Both the position numbers and the translations under genes were made by a program. Shown here in pieces: positions 1,863 through 23,849 of a stretch of DNA of 56,735 nt. The DNA is taken from positions 1 through 56,735 of the IMG/VR virus record IMGVR_UViG_3300044547_000820. One strand, 5' to 3'. Numbering within the stretch: the first letter of the stretch is position 1; every line of letters starts with the position of its first letter. The notes beneath the pieces were generated by a model that saw nothing but the letters and a program-made list of their open reading frames with translations, ran no database searches and was not told the origin of the DNA. Source of the DNA: a virus.

Positions 1863-1933
1863 TCCTAAGCACTAATCGGTGCGGTGTAGCTCCCCAATTG
1901 ATAATATTAAAGCCTACTACTACAGGAGTCTCA

Positions 1934-4003
1934 ATGACCAATAATAATCCTAGGGAAGATTTTTTTTCCTTTAAACTAAGCGAAGATTTTGTTTCAACAT
2001 ATCGCACAAAGAAAGCGCCATTCGGATATCAGGATGCAGCAGGAAACTCTGTTGGAGAAATTACATTTCTTCGTACATATTCCCGAAAGAAACCAGATGG
2101 AACCAAAGAAACTTGGGTTGATGTTTGCGAGCGTGTGATTAACGGCATGTATTCCTTGCAAAAAGATCATTGCCGGAAGAATCGTCTTCCTTGGAATGGT
2201 GTAAAAGCTCAGTCAAGTGCTAAAGAAGCTTTTGACCGCCTGTTCAACCTTAAATGGACACCTCCCGGTCGTGGTCTTTGGATTATGGGAACAGAACTTG
2301 TAAATGTTCAGAGAAACTCTGCTGCTTTGCAAAATTGTGCCTTCGTATCTACTGCGGAAATGTCAAAGGACAATCCGGCGGAACCATTTGCGTTTCTGAT
2401 GGAAGCATCAATGCTCGGAGTGGGTGTTGGCTTTGACGACAAGGGTGCTGATAAAGATTTTACCATCCATGAATCAATTCGCCCAGTAATCACTCAGGTT
2501 ATTGATGACACTCGTGAAGGGTGGATGCAATCAACCGCTGACCTGATCAACTCTTATTTGAAACCAGAACAGAGTCCGATTGTTTTTGACTACTCAATGA
2601 TTCGCCCAGCAGGAGCACCTATTAAAACATTTGGTGGTACAGCTGCTGGTCATGAACCGCTCGAAAAGTTGCACAAATATATTCGTAAGATGTTCCTAGG
2701 TCGTGCAGGTCAAAAACTTACACGAGTTGATATTGCAGACATTGGCAACATGATTGGAGTTTGTGTTGTATCGGGCAATGTACGCCGTTCTGCTGAACTT
2801 CTAATCGGTAGACACAACGATGAGACCTTCTTGAATTTAAAGAACGCAGAAGCCTTCCCAGAGCGTAACTCTTATGATCCAGAGAATCAGGGATGGGCTT
2901 GGATGAGCAACAATTCTGTAGAAACAAATGTTGGCGAAGATCTATCTCACATTGTTGAAAGCATTGCTCTCAACGGAGAACCCGGAGTCATCTGGTTGGA
3001 TATGTCTCGTAAGTATGGTCGTCTAATTGATCCACCAAATAACAAGGACTGGCGTGTAGCTGGATACAACCCATGCGCAGAACAATCTCTTGAATCATAC
3101 GAGTGCTGCACCCTTGTTGAGACATATCTCAACCGCCATGAGTCTCTTGACGACTATAAGCGCACATTGAAATTCGCTTACCTTTACGCAAAGACCGTTA
3201 CTCTTCTTCCGACTCATTGGGAAAAGACAAATGCAATTATGCAGAGAAACCGCCGTATTGGAACATCAATGTCTGGCATCGCAAACTTTGCTGACAATCA
3301 TGGGGTTCCGACACTTCGTGAATGGATGGATCAGGGTTACGAGACAATTAAGCGTTACGACAATGTTTACTCAGAGTGGTTCGGTATCCGTGAATCAATC
3401 AAGATGACAACAGTTAAGCCTTCGGGAACTGTTTCTATTCTGGCAGGAGAATCTCCGGGAGTTCATTGGACTCCGGGTGGAGAATACTTCAATCGTGCAA
3501 TTCGTTTTGCAAATGATGACCCAATGCTTCCTCTGTTCAAAATGGCTAACTACCGTGTTGAGCCAGCTTCTGAATCTCCAGATACAACAAGTGTTGTTTT
3601 CTTCCCGATTAAATCAAATGCTAAGCGTTCTGAAAAGGATGTGACAATATTTGAGAAGATGGCGATTGCATCAGTAGCCCAGCGTTACTGGTCTGATAAC
3701 TCTGTATCGGTAACAATCTCATTTGATGCTGAAAAGGAAAAGGATCAAGTTGGAACTGTTCTTCATATGTACGATGGTCAGCTTAAAACTGTTTCGTTCC
3801 TACCTCAAGGCAACTTTACTTACCCACAAATGCCGTACACCCAGATTACAGAAAAAGAATATAAACAGGATGGTTTAGATAAACTATTCCCAATTGACTT
3901 TGCTGGTGTGTATGCAGGAATGGCTGCAGATGCAATCGGAGAAAGCTACTGCAGTACAGATTCTTGCGAAATCAAACTTATCAAAGACAACATTGCTCAT
4001 TAA
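1934..4003 (+). CDS. nrdJ: Adenosylcobalamin-dependent class II ribonucleotide reductase
   Basis: 689 residues from the ATG at 1934, chosen because AGGAG lies just upstream; the frame stays open back to 1898. It matches the monomeric B12-dependent ribonucleoside-triphosphate reductase type, which is about 740 residues in Lactobacillus. The redox pair and radical Cys are visible: C135 (LQNCAF), N379-P-C381-A-E383 and C392 (YECC), with the C-terminal shuttle pair C673-x4-C678 (YCSTDSC). The 11-residue C381-C392 spacing is the family value. It makes dNTPs for phage DNA synthesis without oxygen dependence, but needs host cobalamin. No B12 riboswitch is seen upstream. Confidence 0.96.
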   Translation: MTNNNPREDFFSFKLSEDFVSTYRTKKAPFGYQDAAGNSVGEITFLRTYSRKKPDGTKETWVDVCERVINGMYSLQKDHCRKNRLPWNGVKAQSSAKEAFDRLFNLKWTPPGRGLWIMGTELVNVQRNSAALQNCAFVSTAEMSKDNPAEPFAFLMEASMLGVGVGFDDKGADKDFTIHESIRPVITQVIDDTREGWMQSTADLINSYLKPEQSPIVFDYSMIRPAGAPIKTFGGTAAGHEPLEKLHKYIRKMFLGRAGQKLTRVDIADIGNMIGVCVVSGNVRRSAELLIGRHNDETFLNLKNAEAFPERNSYDPENQGWAWMSNNSVETNVGEDLSHIVESIALNGEPGVIWLDMSRKYGRLIDPPNNKDWRVAGYNPCAEQSLESYECCTLVETYLNRHESLDDYKRTLKFAYLYAKTVTLLPTHWEKTNAIMQRNRRIGTSMSGIANFADNHGVPTLREWMDQGYETIKRYDNVYSEWFGIRESIKMTTVKPSGTVSILAGESPGVHWTPGGEYFNRAIRFANDDPMLPLFKMANYRVEPASESPDTTSVVFFPIKSNAKRSEKDVTIFEKMAIASVAQRYWSDNSVSVTISFDAEKEKDQVGTVLHMYDGQLKTVSFLPQGNFTYPQMPYTQITEKEYKQDGLDKLFPIDFAGVYAGMAADAIGESYCSTDSCEIKLIKDNIAH

Positions 4004-10519: not shown

Positions 10520-12193
10520 GTGAGAAAATTAAGATTTAATAAAAGTGCATGGATATTAATTCCTGCAATTATTCTCTCTCTTTTTGCATCTCCGGCTAAA
10601 GCTGAAAACTTAATAATCACAGAGCCAACAGATGTTTGGTTTGATTATAGTGAGACAACACAGTTTATAGCCCAAACCTACATGGTCACTGGGTACAACT
10701 CAGATCCAATGTTGTGGCTATATAACGAAGCCGGAACGCTTCTCTACAGCATTGATGATTCCATTGGTCTGCAGTCGTATATCTCAATGGAGGTGCCTGC
10801 TGGTCGTTATAGACTAAGGGCTGGTATTTGCTGTAACAACCCTGATGGTTGGCATACAAACCAAGGGTGGAACTTACAGTATGAACTGAGCTTCAATGGT
10901 GTTGGGTCTACTCAGACCACTTCCACAACATCCACGACAGTAGAATCAACCACAACCACCTCTACCACTGTAGAGCCAACCACGACAACTTCTACAACGA
11001 CCACCACAACAACCACAACCACAACGACAGTGGTGCCGACCACAACAACATCTTCATCTACAACAACTATAGCACCTGAGCCTGAACCGACTACAACGAC
11101 TGTTGAGGAAGTTGTTCCCCCTCCTGTTGAAACACTTCCAACAGAAAACACCACTGTTTCAATTCCCGAGTTGGACCAAACTCCAGTTTCTACTCCAGAA
11201 ATAGATACAACACCTGTTGAAATTCCTGAAGACCCAACGCCAACAATTGAAGTTCCCCAAGAGGTTCAAGAAACTATAGACGCAACGGTTGATGATATTT
11301 TCGATGCACCTATAACCAATGCAAACCTTGCAAATGCCGTTGATGACTTAGTAGCAGATGCCGGAACTCCTGAAGAACTTACGGCAGTGGTTAATTCTCT
11401 TCTTGGTCAAGATTTAACTGATTCGCAGTTTTCTACAGTTATTGATTCAGTGTTTGATGGTCCTATGTCTGACGAAAACTTCTCTGCTGCAGTGGAGGCT
11501 GTCTTTGACAATACATCTCAACTAAGTGCAGACCAATTTGAAGCTGCTGTCGATGCAGTCTTTTCTGAGCCGTTATCTGAAGAACAATTTTCTGCTGCCC
11601 TTGATTCTATTTTTGATGAGCCAATCTCGGATGAAAAATTTGCATCAGTTATTGACTCTGTATTAGATACGCCGTTGTCAGATGAACAATTTGAAGCGGT
11701 TGTTGGAATTTTAGAGTCAGATTCTGTTTCTGAAGAACAAGTGTCTAATGCTGTTGACAGTGTTTTGGAACTTGGTGTTACAGAAGACCAAGCAACCGAC
11801 CTTGCTACAAGTGCAAAGGTTTTGGAAAGTATTGACGCAGATCAGGCTACAGAAATCTTCCAAGAAATTGCTGTTGATAATCTTACTTTAGCGGAAGAAG
11901 CTGCTCTTGTTGAAACACTTACCGATGCCCCAACTGAAATCAAAGAAGCTTTTGAGGGAGAAATTGACATCTTCGGAGAAGGTCTTGACGACTATGTGCC
12001 TACAGGCTCTGGAATAGATGTAAAAGCGAGAAGAGCGCTCATTGCTGTAACAACAGCTTTAACAACGATTACAACGGCTCCTATGCCCTCTGGAGGCAGT
12101 TCTGCACCATCGGGTGGAGGAGCTGGAGGACCATCAGGAAGTGGTGGTTCCGGTAACACAGATCGGGGTAATAGCCGATCAAGGAGAAGATAA
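10520..12193 (+). CDS. Secreted Thr-rich, 17-residue-repeat protein
   Basis: 557 residues from a GTG start. Residues 1-28 form a signal peptide (basic n-region, ILIPAIILSLFAS core, probable cleavage after SPAKA). Next is a short folded domain with CCNNPDGWHTNQGW, then a Thr/Ser/Pro linker of about 60 residues. About eight to ten acidic 17-residue helical repeats follow, with consensus near LSDEQFSAAVDSVFDEP, and then a Gly/Ser-rich, basic C-terminus (RGNSRSRRR). I recall similar repeat proteins in aquatic actinobacteria but could not check. It may be a surface or envelope protein, an exclusion factor or a virion appendage; the signal peptide makes export likely. It sits immediately before the lysis genes. 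Confidence 0.85.
   Translation: MRKLRFNKSAWILIPAIILSLFASPAKAENLIITEPTDVWFDYSETTQFIAQTYMVTGYNSDPMLWLYNEAGTLLYSIDDSIGLQSYISMEVPAGRYRLRAGICCNNPDGWHTNQGWNLQYELSFNGVGSTQTTSTTSTTVESTTTTSTTVEPTTTTSTTTTTTTTTTTTVVPTTTTSSSTTTIAPEPEPTTTTVEEVVPPPVETLPTENTTVSIPELDQTPVSTPEIDTTPVEIPEDPTPTIEVPQEVQETIDATVDDIFDAPITNANLANAVDDLVADAGTPEELTAVVNSLLGQDLTDSQFSTVIDSVFDGPMSDENFSAAVEAVFDNTSQLSADQFEAAVDAVFSEPLSEEQFSAALDSIFDEPISDEKFASVIDSVLDTPLSDEQFEAVVGILESDSVSEEQVSNAVDSVLELGVTEDQATDLATSAKVLESIDADQATEIFQEIAVDNLTLAEEAALVETLTDAPTEIKEAFEGEIDIFGEGLDDYVPTGSGIDVKARRALIAVTTALTTITTAPMPSGGSSAPSGGGAGGPSGSGGSGNTDRGNSRSRRR
10908..11100 (+). repeat. ACN-repeat tract encoding Thr-rich linker
   Basis: Low-complexity ACA/ACC/ACG codons run through this segment of the secreted protein gene. 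Such tracts expand and contract by slippage. The long minus-strand ORF opposite is a by-product. Confidence 0.8.
11400..11830 (+). repeat. 51-bp protein-level tandem repeats
   Basis: Units of 17 codons with consensus [LIV]-S-[DE]-E-Q-F-x-A-A-V-D-S-V-F-D-E-P recur in tandem. The DNA has diverged but the residues are kept, implying selection on the protein and an old duplication. Confidence 0.75.
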
Positions 12194-12608: not shown

Positions 12609-12610
12609 GG

Positions 12611-12616
12611 TATAAT
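12611..12616 (+). promoter_or_regulatory. Consensus -10 (TATAAT) before the endolysin pair
   Basis: TATAAT sits 36 nt before the ATG at 12653, followed by a palindrome TGTTAACA (12616-12623) and a Shine-Dalgarno GAAGGAG. Unlike the leaderless promoters, it gives a leader with a ribosome binding site. Confidence 0.5.
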
Positions 12617-12652
12617 GTTAACATAGTGATTTAATGTCACGAAGGAGATTAT

Positions 12653-12844
12653 ATGATCAAAATTACAGAACAAAATAAGGCAATGCTTGCCTCTTACGCA
12701 AGAAGCGTACTCGGTGCAGGTGTTGCAACATATGTTGCAACCAGTGACATCAAATTGACAGCCAACGCTCTTTGGGCTGCAGCCCTTCCAGTGGTTTTGC
12801 GTTACCTAAATCCAAAAGACCAAGCATTCGGAAAGACCAAATAA
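12653..12844 (+). CDS. Small membrane protein of a phage family next to endolysins
   Basis: 63 residues, Shine-Dalgarno GAAGGAG. The sequence MLASYARSVLGAGVATYV, then ALWAAALPVVLRYLNPKDQAFG, resembles a short family I recall from many aquatic phages near lysis genes. One or two membrane helices are predicted by eye. It overlaps the endolysin start by one base (ATAATG), so it is a strong holin candidate by coupling. Confidence 0.75.
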   Translation: MIKITEQNKAMLASYARSVLGAGVATYVATSDIKLTANALWAAALPVVLRYLNPKDQAFGKTK

Positions 12845-13380
12845 TGGCTCGCAAGTACCCCTATTATCCCGCTTTTGACGGAAAAAAAGCAGGAGCTGGC
12901 GTTGAGTGGTTCGTTGGCGCTTGTGGTCGCCGTTGGAAGGCTACAAATCTAGGAATATATTCCGCAAGATTGATGAGAAACTCTCATACAGAAGGTAAGA
13001 AGATTGGTGATCCCGGAATGGAAAAGTGGCTTAGTGTTCACTCAACTGGAGCTGCATGCGATATTGGTTATTCAGATCGTAAAGTCGGTCTTGCTATGTG
13101 GGACTGGTTCCTTGCACATACGAAAGAATTAGGTATTGTTGAAATCCATGATTATGCATTTGATGCAAATGCTAAAGATGGAAAGCCCGGTTACGGAAGA
13201 GGTTATCGCTGCTCCCGTGGTGAAGGCTCGGACCCAAAGTCAGTCAAGATTTATGATTCAAAAGATAATGCAGGAAGTTTTGGGGGCAAGTGGTTGCACC
13301 TAGAATTTGAAGCTGAATTTGCAAAAGATGCAGCAAAGATGGAAGCAGCATGGAAGGCTTTGCCAAAGCCCGGTGCATGA
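12844..13380 (+). CDS. Endolysin, M15-family peptidase type
   Basis: 178 residues from the ATG that overlaps the previous stop. The M15/VanY zinc signature S-x-H-x6-D is seen as VHSTGAACD (H66, D73), with a second zinc ligand in GGKWLHLEFE (H152). These enzymes cut peptide bonds in peptidoglycan stem peptides (L-Ala-D-Glu or D-Ala-D-Ala type). There is no signal peptide, consistent with release through a holin. A short basic tail, rather than a separate cell-wall-binding domain, ends the protein. Its stop overlaps the Cys-rich peptide gene by four bases. Confidence 0.85.
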   Translation: MARKYPYYPAFDGKKAGAGVEWFVGACGRRWKATNLGIYSARLMRNSHTEGKKIGDPGMEKWLSVHSTGAACDIGYSDRKVGLAMWDWFLAHTKELGIVEIHDYAFDANAKDGKPGYGRGYRCSRGEGSDPKSVKIYDSKDNAGSFGGKWLHLEFEAEFAKDAAKMEAAWKALPKPGA

Positions 13381-13475
13381 TGAGTGAATTAGAAAAGTCA
13401 AGATCAAAAAGTTGTACCTGCGGTTGTGAATGCACTGACCAATGTACATGTGGCTGTGAAGACTGCGTTTGTTGA
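13377..13475 (+). CDS. Metallothionein-like Cys-rich peptide
   Basis: 32 codons from the ATG at 13377, which overlaps the endolysin stop as ATGA; an in-frame ATG at 13380 follows. After a short charged start (MSELEKSRSKS), the last 20 residues contain nine Cys in two related blocks, CTCGCEC and CTCGCEDCVC. Cys-x-Cys spacing and absence of aromatics are typical of metallothioneins, which bind Zn, Cd or Cu. It could scavenge metal during lysis, assist metal-dependent phage enzymes, or be a virion component. Its tail overlaps the -35 of the next promoter. Confidence 0.7.
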   Translation: MMSELEKSRSKSCTCGCECTDQCTCGCEDCVC

Positions 13476-13509: not shown

Positions 13510-13848
13510 ATGGCTGGCGCAAGAGATATCGTTTTATATGCTGGTGATACATATGTTCATGAGCTTCGTTTAAGAAATAGTGCAAACGCTGTTATTAATA
13601 TCAGCTCACATAGCTACTCTGGTCAAATCAAGCTGGGTCGTACTGCAACGGACAATATTGTTTCGTTTACTTCTCAAATAACTGATGGAGCAAATGGGGT
13701 TGTTCAGTTCTCACTGGCTGCTAATGTAACATCTACAATAACCTCTGGAACTTATTACTATGACATCCAACAAACAAACGGTACAGTTGTAACCACCTTG
13801 CTCGCTGGTAAGGCGATTGTGCAAGGGGATGTTACTCGTGCCAGCTGA
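13510..13848 (+). CDS. Fibre-module protein, Ig/BppU-like N-domain type
   Basis: 112 residues. The pattern GARDIVLYAGDTYVHELRLR, then VQFSLAANVTSTITSGTYYY and DIQQTNG resembles the small beta-sandwich domains at the N-termini of phage baseplate or receptor-binding proteins. It is the first gene of the fibre operon and overlaps the next by 11 bases. A role in attaching fibres is likely but inferred from context. Confidence 0.7.
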   Translation: MAGARDIVLYAGDTYVHELRLRNSANAVINISSHSYSGQIKLGRTATDNIVSFTSQITDGANGVVQFSLAANVTSTITSGTYYYDIQQTNGTVVTTLLAGKAIVQGDVTRAS

Positions 13849-18316: not shown

Positions 18317-18718
18317 ATGGATAGGGTCATATATTGTCCATCTAGTGAATTTTTAGAAGAAGCTTCATCTCTCGCTAGAAAAACCTATCTGCAGATTATA
18401 GTTGGGGATAATGACCACACAGCGGATTTAGACTTTGATAGAGGAAAAGTATTGGTTGTTTCTGTGCCTCAAAACAAAGGTTATTTCTTTTTAAAATCCG
18501 TTAAAGAAGGTTTTCACCAAAATATTAAATATAAAAATGAATTTTGTGTTATAAAGAATAAAGTTGATTTGTTTATTAATAATGACCTAATAAAGCCTGT
18601 ATACGAAGAATCTCATGTTGCAAAATTCATACATCTCTGTAAAGATGTTGGTGATTATTCCTGTAGAATAGTCGTTGATCAAAAAATAGAAGAGGAGTTT
18701 TCTTTTGTTGTCAATTAA
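18317..18718 (+). CDS. Unknown protein of the oxygenase/halogenase cassette
   Basis: 133 residues from the ATG at 18317; the frame is open from 18299 but inside the preceding gene. It is mixed alpha/beta, Lys/Asp-rich, with YLQIIVGDNDHTADLDFDRG and a C-terminal EEEFSFVVN. No family is recognised. It overlaps the oxygenase gene by 14 bases, so the products are made together. Confidence 0.65.
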   Translation: MDRVIYCPSSEFLEEASSLARKTYLQIIVGDNDHTADLDFDRGKVLVVSVPQNKGYFFLKSVKEGFHQNIKYKNEFCVIKNKVDLFINNDLIKPVYEESHVAKFIHLCKDVGDYSCRIVVDQKIEEEFSFVVN

Positions 18719-19304
18719 AAAAGAGGAAAAAGCGCCTTGTATTTGGATTTACAAAGATGCTTTTGATAGTAAAAATTTTTGTGAATTAGTTGAGAAAGAG
18801 ACAGAAGAAGACTGGGCATTAATTGACTGGTCGTACTCAGCAACTGGGGATGGTGACCAAAAGCAAACTAGCGAATACCGTACATCTCTTGAAATGCCAA
18901 TGAATCCTTTTTTTTCTGAAACAATCAATGAAAAGTTAAAACCACTTCAAGATATTTTTATGAATGACATTTTTACTAAGATTGACGAATGTATATGGGA
19001 TTATAGAACATGTTTTGATTTGAATCTAAAAGCGGATTCAGGGTTCTCTCTTCTGAAATATATGGATGGAGGGGAATATCATATCCATCACGACCATAGC
19101 CCTGATAACTCAAGAGTTCTAAGTTTGGTTGCATGTCTTGGTGATAATTTTGAAGGCGGAGAGTTGGAGTTTAACAATTTTGACTTGACAGTGAAGCTAG
19201 AAAAAAATTCTTTGATCCTTTTCCCGTCTAATTTTCCATATACTCATATTGCTCATCCCGTCAAAAGCGGTGTAAAATATAGTCTGGTAACATGGTTCCG
19301 ATGA
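18705..19304 (+). CDS. 2OG-Fe(II) oxygenase, prolyl 4-hydroxylase type
   Basis: 199 residues from a TTG with AGGAG 7 nt upstream. The double-stranded beta-helix iron site is clear: GGEYHIHHDH gives H128-x-D130, with distal H181 in YTHIAHPVKSG and K191 taking the usual Arg place that binds 2-oxoglutarate (KYSLVTWF). GDNFEGGELEF is typical of P4H-like enzymes. It would hydroxylate a side chain, possibly Pro in a phage protein, using O2 and 2-oxoglutarate. Similar genes are common near fibre genes of marine phages. The four-base overlap (ATGA) with the next gene shows coupling. Confidence 0.88.
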   Translation: MLSIKKEEKAPCIWIYKDAFDSKNFCELVEKETEEDWALIDWSYSATGDGDQKQTSEYRTSLEMPMNPFFSETINEKLKPLQDIFMNDIFTKIDECIWDYRTCFDLNLKADSGFSLLKYMDGGEYHIHHDHSPDNSRVLSLVACLGDNFEGGELEFNNFDLTVKLEKNSLILFPSNFPYTHIAHPVKSGVKYSLVTWFR

Positions 19305-22922: not shown

Positions 22923-23849
22923 ATGGAAGATGTAAAAGTAAACACATCCAAGACCCTAACCCTCACTCTCCCCGCTGACCCCACTTCAAATCTGGTCAGT
23001 GTCTCTGTTTATCATGAGCTGGGAGACCTTGTACACGGTCCTGTGAGTGCCTCTAGAGCCTCTGCAGGCGTTTATACAATAACATTGGGACAGCAAGCGT
23101 CTGGTATCTATATTTTAAATGCAGCAGGCAGGCACCGTACAGAATTCACCTATACGGTTTCTGGGGTTTCATATACACAGGCTCAGTACATTAATGTCTA
23201 TACCCCCTACACTACTGCTGCTGATTTCTTCATTTCCTATCCGGAATTGCAAGAGTCTAAAGGGTCACTCTTTGACCGATACGAAAAGCGGGTCAGGGCA
23301 ATCATTGACACCTACTGCGGTCAGTCATTTGATTACTACCCAGACAAGTCCATTACAATTGATGGAAACAATCACGCAAACCTTCATCTCCCATACCCTG
23401 TTTATAATTTAACCAAAGTTACCCAAGATCCGGGTCGTACATACGAAGAGGTTCTGTTTGATGCAACCTTGCCAACAGTTAATAATGTTGAGAGAGTTAA
23501 GCAGCCTTTAAACTTTGAAGCTTCTTATTACATTCGTTTCAAATCAGATACGATTGATAAGAACGATACCCTGATTGTTCCCAACTCATGGAAAGCAAAA
23601 AGAGAGTACAAGATTGAAGGAGACTTCGGTTGGGGCTATGTACCTAACAATGTGAAGTTTGCAGCTGATCTCCTGATTGCTGACTTGATGAATGACGATT
23701 CTGAATACAGAAGGCATGGAATTCATAGCGTTGATATGGATGTTGTTAAGATGCAGATGAAACAGTCGTTCTATGAATCAACCGGGAATATTGAAGCTGA
23801 TGTCTACTTGATGGATTACACACTGTTTGTGATGGATTATGTGGTCTAA
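22923..23849 (+). CDS. Head-tail connector (adaptor) with N-terminal Ig-like domain
   Basis: 308 residues. Residues 1-90 look like an Ig/BppU-type beta domain (KTLTLTLPADPTSNLVSVSV). The remainder resembles head-tail connector proteins of the HK97 gp6 type: FFISYPELQESKGSLFDRYE, IDTYCGQSFDYYPDKSITID and GDFGWGYVPNNVKFAADLLI followed by a helix. It should bind beneath the portal. It leads a run of four overlapping neck and tail-completion genes. Adaptors of this class are usually about 100-200 residues, so the added N-domain is extra. Confidence 0.78.
   Translation: MEDVKVNTSKTLTLTLPADPTSNLVSVSVYHELGDLVHGPVSASRASAGVYTITLGQQASGIYILNAAGRHRTEFTYTVSGVSYTQAQYINVYTPYTTAADFFISYPELQESKGSLFDRYEKRVRAIIDTYCGQSFDYYPDKSITIDGNNHANLHLPYPVYNLTKVTQDPGRTYEEVLFDATLPTVNNVERVKQPLNFEASYYIRFKSDTIDKNDTLIVPNSWKAKREYKIEGDFGWGYVPNNVKFAADLLIADLMNDDSEYRRHGIHSVDMDVVKMQMKQSFYESTGNIEADVYLMDYTLFVMDYVV

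Follow-up and report, generated by a model that had tools for sequence, protein, structure and literature searches.

Directly at the end of a predicted endolysin gene in an uncultured phage, a 32-codon open reading frame rich in cysteine raises the question of whether so short a frame is a gene and, if it is, whether its product binds metal and serves the lysin beside it. The locus lies in the first quarter of the 56,735 nucleotides taken from IMG/VR virus record IMGVR_UViG_3300044547_000820, which we refer to as the window. An earlier note had read the frame as an easily missed metallothionein-like gene coupled to a zinc-dependent lysin. The lysin and the micro-ORF are laid out as follows.

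12844..13380, + strand: endolysin, predicted LAS/M15-type zinc peptidase, 178 aa (fold match, invariant residues)
13377..13475, + strand: micro-ORF from the first ATG, 32 aa, MMSELEKSRSKSCTCGCECTDQCTCGCEDCVC (the version of the earlier note; ATGA overlap with the lysin stop)
13380..13475, + strand: micro-gene from the preferred start, 31 aa, MSELEKSRSKSCTCGCECTDQCTCGCEDCVC, plus stop (conserved start, nine invariant Cys in 36 haplotypes)
13413..13472, + strand: nine-Cys core C-x-C-G-C-x-C-x3-C-x-C-G-C-[ED]-x-C-x-C (Cys register invariant in 64 copies)

The frame is present as had been described, with codons running from ATG at 13377 to 13472 and a TGA stop at 13473-13475. Translation confirmed nine Cys within the C-terminal 20 residues, which fall in two similar blocks, CTCGCEC and CTCGCEDCVC. 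The lysin ORF stops at TGA 13378-13380, giving an ATGA overlap with the first ATG of the micro-ORF and a TGATG overlap, with one base shared, with the second ATG at 13380. The second ATG is the likelier start, because it is retained in relatives in which the first is replaced by GTG (L159), ATA (L349 and L370), or GTA (L221 and L352), and the window peptide more likely has 31 residues than 32. Peptides of the family have 25–32 residues, with MRTKSCSCGCECGEHCDCGCDECTC as a natural 25-mer. They carry no signal sequence and pack nine Cys into 20 residues with six CxC steps; aromatic residues are absent from the window peptide and rare (Y or F) in relatives.

Cysteine density by itself is no proof of a gene. 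When the window was simulated 40 times with a Markov-1 model, the richest 20-residue stretch contained 5 to 7 Cys, but the real window has an antisense open stretch (reverse-strand offset 45683, about 11.0 kb), opposite the Thr-repeat gene, that likewise reaches nine. Conservation was more informative. A lysin search led to 80 related loci, which were fetched, and a peptide profile and then a register-specific DNA pattern were applied. A generic nine-Cys DNA pattern was dropped, as it found mainly poly-Cys frames of low-complexity repeats, and a CGC-specific register was used instead. This pattern matched 62 IMG/VR contigs; adding the window and a variant contig brought the total to 64 copies, representing 36 nucleotide haplotypes and 35 distinct peptides. 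Their common form is [RK]-x-K-x-C-x-C-[GD]-C-x-C-x3-C-x-C-G-C-[ED]-x-C-x-C, and in all copies the ninth Cys is the last residue before the stop codon, which leaves the micro-peptide little more than a metal-site core. Loss of Cys in relatives had been named in the earlier note as evidence that would count against the gene. Each of the nine positions is Cys in 36 of 36 haplotypes, with switching between TGT and TGC at every one; the overlap with the lysin, the other trait singled out for comparison, does not hold throughout, as some copies are non-overlapping. Over the 36 haplotypes, mean pS is 0.83 and mean pN 0.17 (pN/pS 0.21), and the four virus records searched whole contain one copy each. 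The conserved Cys register across the haplotypes identifies the micro-ORF as a real gene.

The haplotypes form two groups with different neighbours, group 1 with 23 (the window included) and group 2 with 13. In group 1 the usual order is a Thr-rich secreted protein, small membrane-type proteins, the lysin, the micro-gene, an LtfC-like protein, and tail proteins, with the LtfC-like gene directly 3' of the micro-gene in all haplotypes. In group 2 the micro-gene is immediately 5' of a head-tail connector homologue. The corresponding features of the window are listed below.

12609..12617, + strand: promoter-like -10 element GGTATAATG (exact match), upstream of the putative holin-lysin-micro-gene operon
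12653..12844, + strand: small protein, possible holin, 63 aa (weak PHROG holin match, E 0.095; synteny conserved)
13510..13848, + strand: LtfC-like beta-sandwich protein, 112 aa (constant downstream neighbour in group 1)
22923..23849, + strand: head-tail connector homologue, 308 aa (its counterpart directly follows the micro-gene in group 2)

The LtfC-like protein matches phrog_1084 (E 9e-20), phrog_3304, annotated as L-shaped tail fibre assembly (E 9e-8), and PF23926 at an E value (1e-4) short of the curated cutoff. The N terminus of the window connector homologue, MEDVKVNTSKTLTLTLPADPTSN, matches that of group 2, MDDVKINTSKTLTLTLPSDADSN; a connector role is suggested by its position, which is as in Streptomyces phage Annadreamy, where the connector protein comes after the capsid genes. 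With the window counterpart at 22923, this order places the micro-gene at the border of a lysis/fibre island between the capsid and connector genes. In all haplotypes the downstream gene is one of the two structural-type genes, and its start lies between 7 bases ahead of the micro-gene stop and 34 bases past it, whereas the upstream gene varies.

Judged by the portal protein, the closest relatives among sequenced phages are Streptomyces phages of the Stanwilliamsviridae (about 41% identity), which suggests, without proving, an actinobacterial host. Among other genes of the window, a B12-dependent (class II) ribonucleotide reductase is encoded at 1898-4003, and a 2OG-Fe(II) oxygenase at 18705-19304 lies amid tail and fibre genes. 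The lysis genes are directly preceded by a 557-aa protein (10520-12193) that is conserved in relatives; its N terminus resembles a signal peptide, and it contains long Thr/Ser repeats as well as acidic ones. The product of 12360-12608 matches phrog_26427 (E 4e-21), which is labelled nuclease; by its sequence, however, the product resembles a small membrane protein or a holin, and the label may be wrong.

Signals for expression differ among the copies. The window micro-gene apparently belongs to a holin-lysin operon. The element at 12609..12617 is suggestive only as the promoter of this putative operon, as elements of its type at one mismatch occur 12 times in the window against 11.2 expected by chance, which is no excess. 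In the 63 bases upstream of the micro-gene, a TATAAT is present in 9 of the 13 group-2 haplotypes, where a little over one would be expected, and in none of the 23 of group 1, so that some copies look independently transcribed. Copies that overlap the lysin have no clear Shine-Dalgarno sequence, in keeping with re-initiation at the end of the lysin gene, and most non-overlapping copies have an AGGAG-type site before the ATG. The micro-gene is a coding gene under purifying selection, with an invariant Cys register, conserved synteny, and translation signals; it is lineage-bound and probably late.

What would such a peptide do? The explanation that we favour, with some reserve, is a phage-encoded metallothionein-like micro-protein that acts as a late buffer of metal. 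Its translation, probably late in infection, would depend on re-initiation at the lysin stop in the window; relatives would use a Shine-Dalgarno sequence belonging to the micro-gene, in some cases together with a promoter-like site of its own. The product, a cytosolic peptide of 25 to 32 residues, would use its nine thiolates to fold about soft metal ions such as Zn(II) or Cu(I), with a single three-metal, nine-cysteine cluster as the simplest arrangement, and would buffer or sequester metal, and perhaps oxidants, during virion assembly and host dismantling. Metallothioneins commonly contain a Zn3Cys9 cluster, and the structure of M3Cys9 domains is known (PMC10612145); among bacterial metallothioneins, nine Cys can be joined by His, as in the Zn3Cys9His of a Pseudomonas protein (PMC7387436). 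The metallothionein-like reading of the earlier note is supported by the composition and by the nine Cys, which equal the ligand count of Zn3Cys9. A basic [RK]-x-K lead precedes the nine-thiolate site, and a His just before the fifth Cys in 11 of the 13 group-2 haplotypes is a possible extra ligand. The odd number of Cys and the lack of a signal sequence argue against a purely disulfide-bonded product.

Against a metal buffer stands the constant neighbour of the micro-gene, a structural-type gene, which would also fit a role in the virion or its assembly. This is the main rival: a zinc knot that binds metal but serves the virion together with the downstream product, either the LtfC-like tail protein or the connector homologue. 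In its favour, every haplotype has one of these two genes 3' of the micro-gene, although the upstream gene changes. However, the two downstream proteins differ, and each also occurs without an adjacent micro-gene, the connector in the window itself and LtfC in a set of sister phages (L408-L417), where no micro-peptide is found upstream of it (the L415 contig ends there). The micro-gene therefore looks like an insertion at a module border rather than one half of a partnership, and we consider the zinc knot unlikely. A tie to LtfC alone was also rejected, given that group 2 has the connector instead and that these sister phages have LtfC alone.

Decidedly improbable, in our estimate, is a role in host takeover or counter-defence, in which the peptide would take zinc or copper away from a metalloprotein of the host, or act as a thiol redox agent, and so block a host function. 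The gene is small, lineage-specific, optional, and placed at a variable module border, all of which is typical of accessory phage genes, but the late lysis and structural genes next to it point to action late in infection, not early.

The earlier note had instead proposed that the peptide delivers metal to the zinc endolysin or protects it. A zinc lysin is indeed predicted. Although neither Pfam nor PHROG gave a match, its predicted model (mean pLDDT 81.5) aligned with the C-terminal domain of VldE (VIA-align; Z 10.4, rmsd 2.5 over 104 residues), with Hedgehog N-domains (Z about 5), and with other LAS folds; Foldseek alone gave no significant placement (at best E 0.014, to LdcB). Relatives of this lysin are encoded in about 205 viral contig stretches, and H66, D73, W150, H152, and E154 are invariant in the 32 lysins compared. 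The VldE match and the invariant H66, D73, W150, and H152 make a LAS/M15-type zinc peptidase likely, with H66, D73, and H152 as predicted ligands. The overlap of the micro-gene with the stop of such a lysin, and the finding that most micro-gene copies lie within one gene of a lysin, would suit a zinc chaperone.

Support for the coupling nevertheless fails in both directions. The micro-gene adjoins the lysin in only 17 of the 80 fetched relatives, all 17 with LtfC downstream, while the other 63 (the incomplete contig L051 among them) have no micro-gene beside the lysin, even where the lysins are 92–93% identical (L006-L008), and no micro-gene-less lysin contig is among the 62 that the register pattern matched anywhere. 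The lysins of L408-L417 that were read are VanY-type zinc lysins, so zinc lysins in sister phages also do without the micro-gene; this VanY-type lysin has two domains, the C-terminal one peptidoglycan-binding-like. Conversely, the gene preceding the micro-gene encodes a VanY lysin in L352 and L383, an Rv2525c-like glycoside-hydrolase lysin in L135, a nuclease-like protein in L155, L345, and L372, a small membrane-type protein in L373 and L376, and products other than lysin enzymes in L355 and L384; the last four contigs have no lysin catalytic gene directly upstream. Several copies also have their own TATAAT and Shine-Dalgarno. The nuclease-like gene of L155 (3355-3732; also in L345 and L372, part of the connector group) is thermonuclease-like, with the motif VxDGDTIDLxxDLGF, and lies between the lysin and the micro-gene. 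We therefore reject the idea that the micro-peptide travels with the window-type lysin, as either occurs without the other among the relatives, and regard metal delivery to the lysin as highly improbable as the selected function.

Scarcely credible, finally, is an Fe-S cluster or other metal-cofactor peptide working in electron transfer or regulation rather than as a metal buffer, since short CxC-rich peptides can hold Fe-S clusters in vitro but nine Cys in CxC runs and no CxxCxxC ferredoxin motif fit a multimetal thiolate cluster better.

With the late metal buffer as the preferred reading, the uncultured phages of these two related groups probably produce a metal sponge of their own in the late phase of infection. 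Whether they define an undescribed minimal phage metallothionein family, with 25–32 residues, one predicted M3Cys9 cluster, and a late metal-buffering function in two environmental phage groups, is in our judgement evenly balanced. If they do, selection in these viruses acts on how metal is handled during lysis or assembly, and a conserved nine-Cys phage peptide indicates that the metal homeostasis of the infected cell may merit a dedicated viral gene. The gene is indeed easy to miss, as an ORF of 25 to 32 codons would be skipped by gene callers at their usual length cut-offs; the register pattern offers a means of searching virome data for further copies, and a natural peptide that is metallothionein-like and very small is now at hand for in vitro work.

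How the micro-peptide relates to known proteins was addressed with several searches, for which short low-complexity peptides are hard targets, whether by profile or by sequence match. The micro-peptide had no match in Pfam or PHROGs, and nine family members searched against Pfam and NCBIfam at E up to 10 matched no family, although HMMER filters may hide weak matches. A profile search of PDB sequences found none, and tblastn against sequenced phages and plasmids gave nothing beyond a chance match. The register pattern was absent from 396 Actinomycetota genomes, and no micro-gene was found in cellular genome contigs among the matches listed (tblastn-confirmed). The literature searched for phage metallothioneins held nothing relevant, so that neither it nor the family libraries contain a phage metallothionein. 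As far as sequence can say, the micro-peptide is metallothionein-like but belongs to no described metallothionein family.

The comparison with individual families bears this out. SmtA-type metallothioneins have about 50 residues or more, roughly twice the length of the micro-peptide, with a zinc-finger-like fold and His ligands, whereas the micro-peptides have 25–32 residues, and where His occurs in them it mostly precedes the fifth Cys, in one of the two groups. MymT, the copper metallothionein of Mycobacterium tuberculosis, is longer than the micro-peptide and has other Cys spacing. It is chromosomal, with a role in copper detoxification, but is likewise a small Cys-rich protein of Actinobacteria (named in PMC7387436). 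SmtA and the Pseudomonas metallothionein share with the micro-peptide a bacterial setting, nine Cys, and sometimes a His ligand (PMC7387436), yet no curated prokaryotic metallothionein profile, SmtA-type included, matched it. Compared with metallothioneins that have M3Cys9 domains (PMC10612145), the micro-peptide is phage-encoded, orders its Cys as CxCxCxCx3CxCxCx2CxC in 25–32 residues, has predicted metal binding, and matches no curated metallothionein model by sequence. What it shares with them is the very short, Cys-rich chain with CxC steps, nine Cys, few aromatic residues, and no signal sequence.
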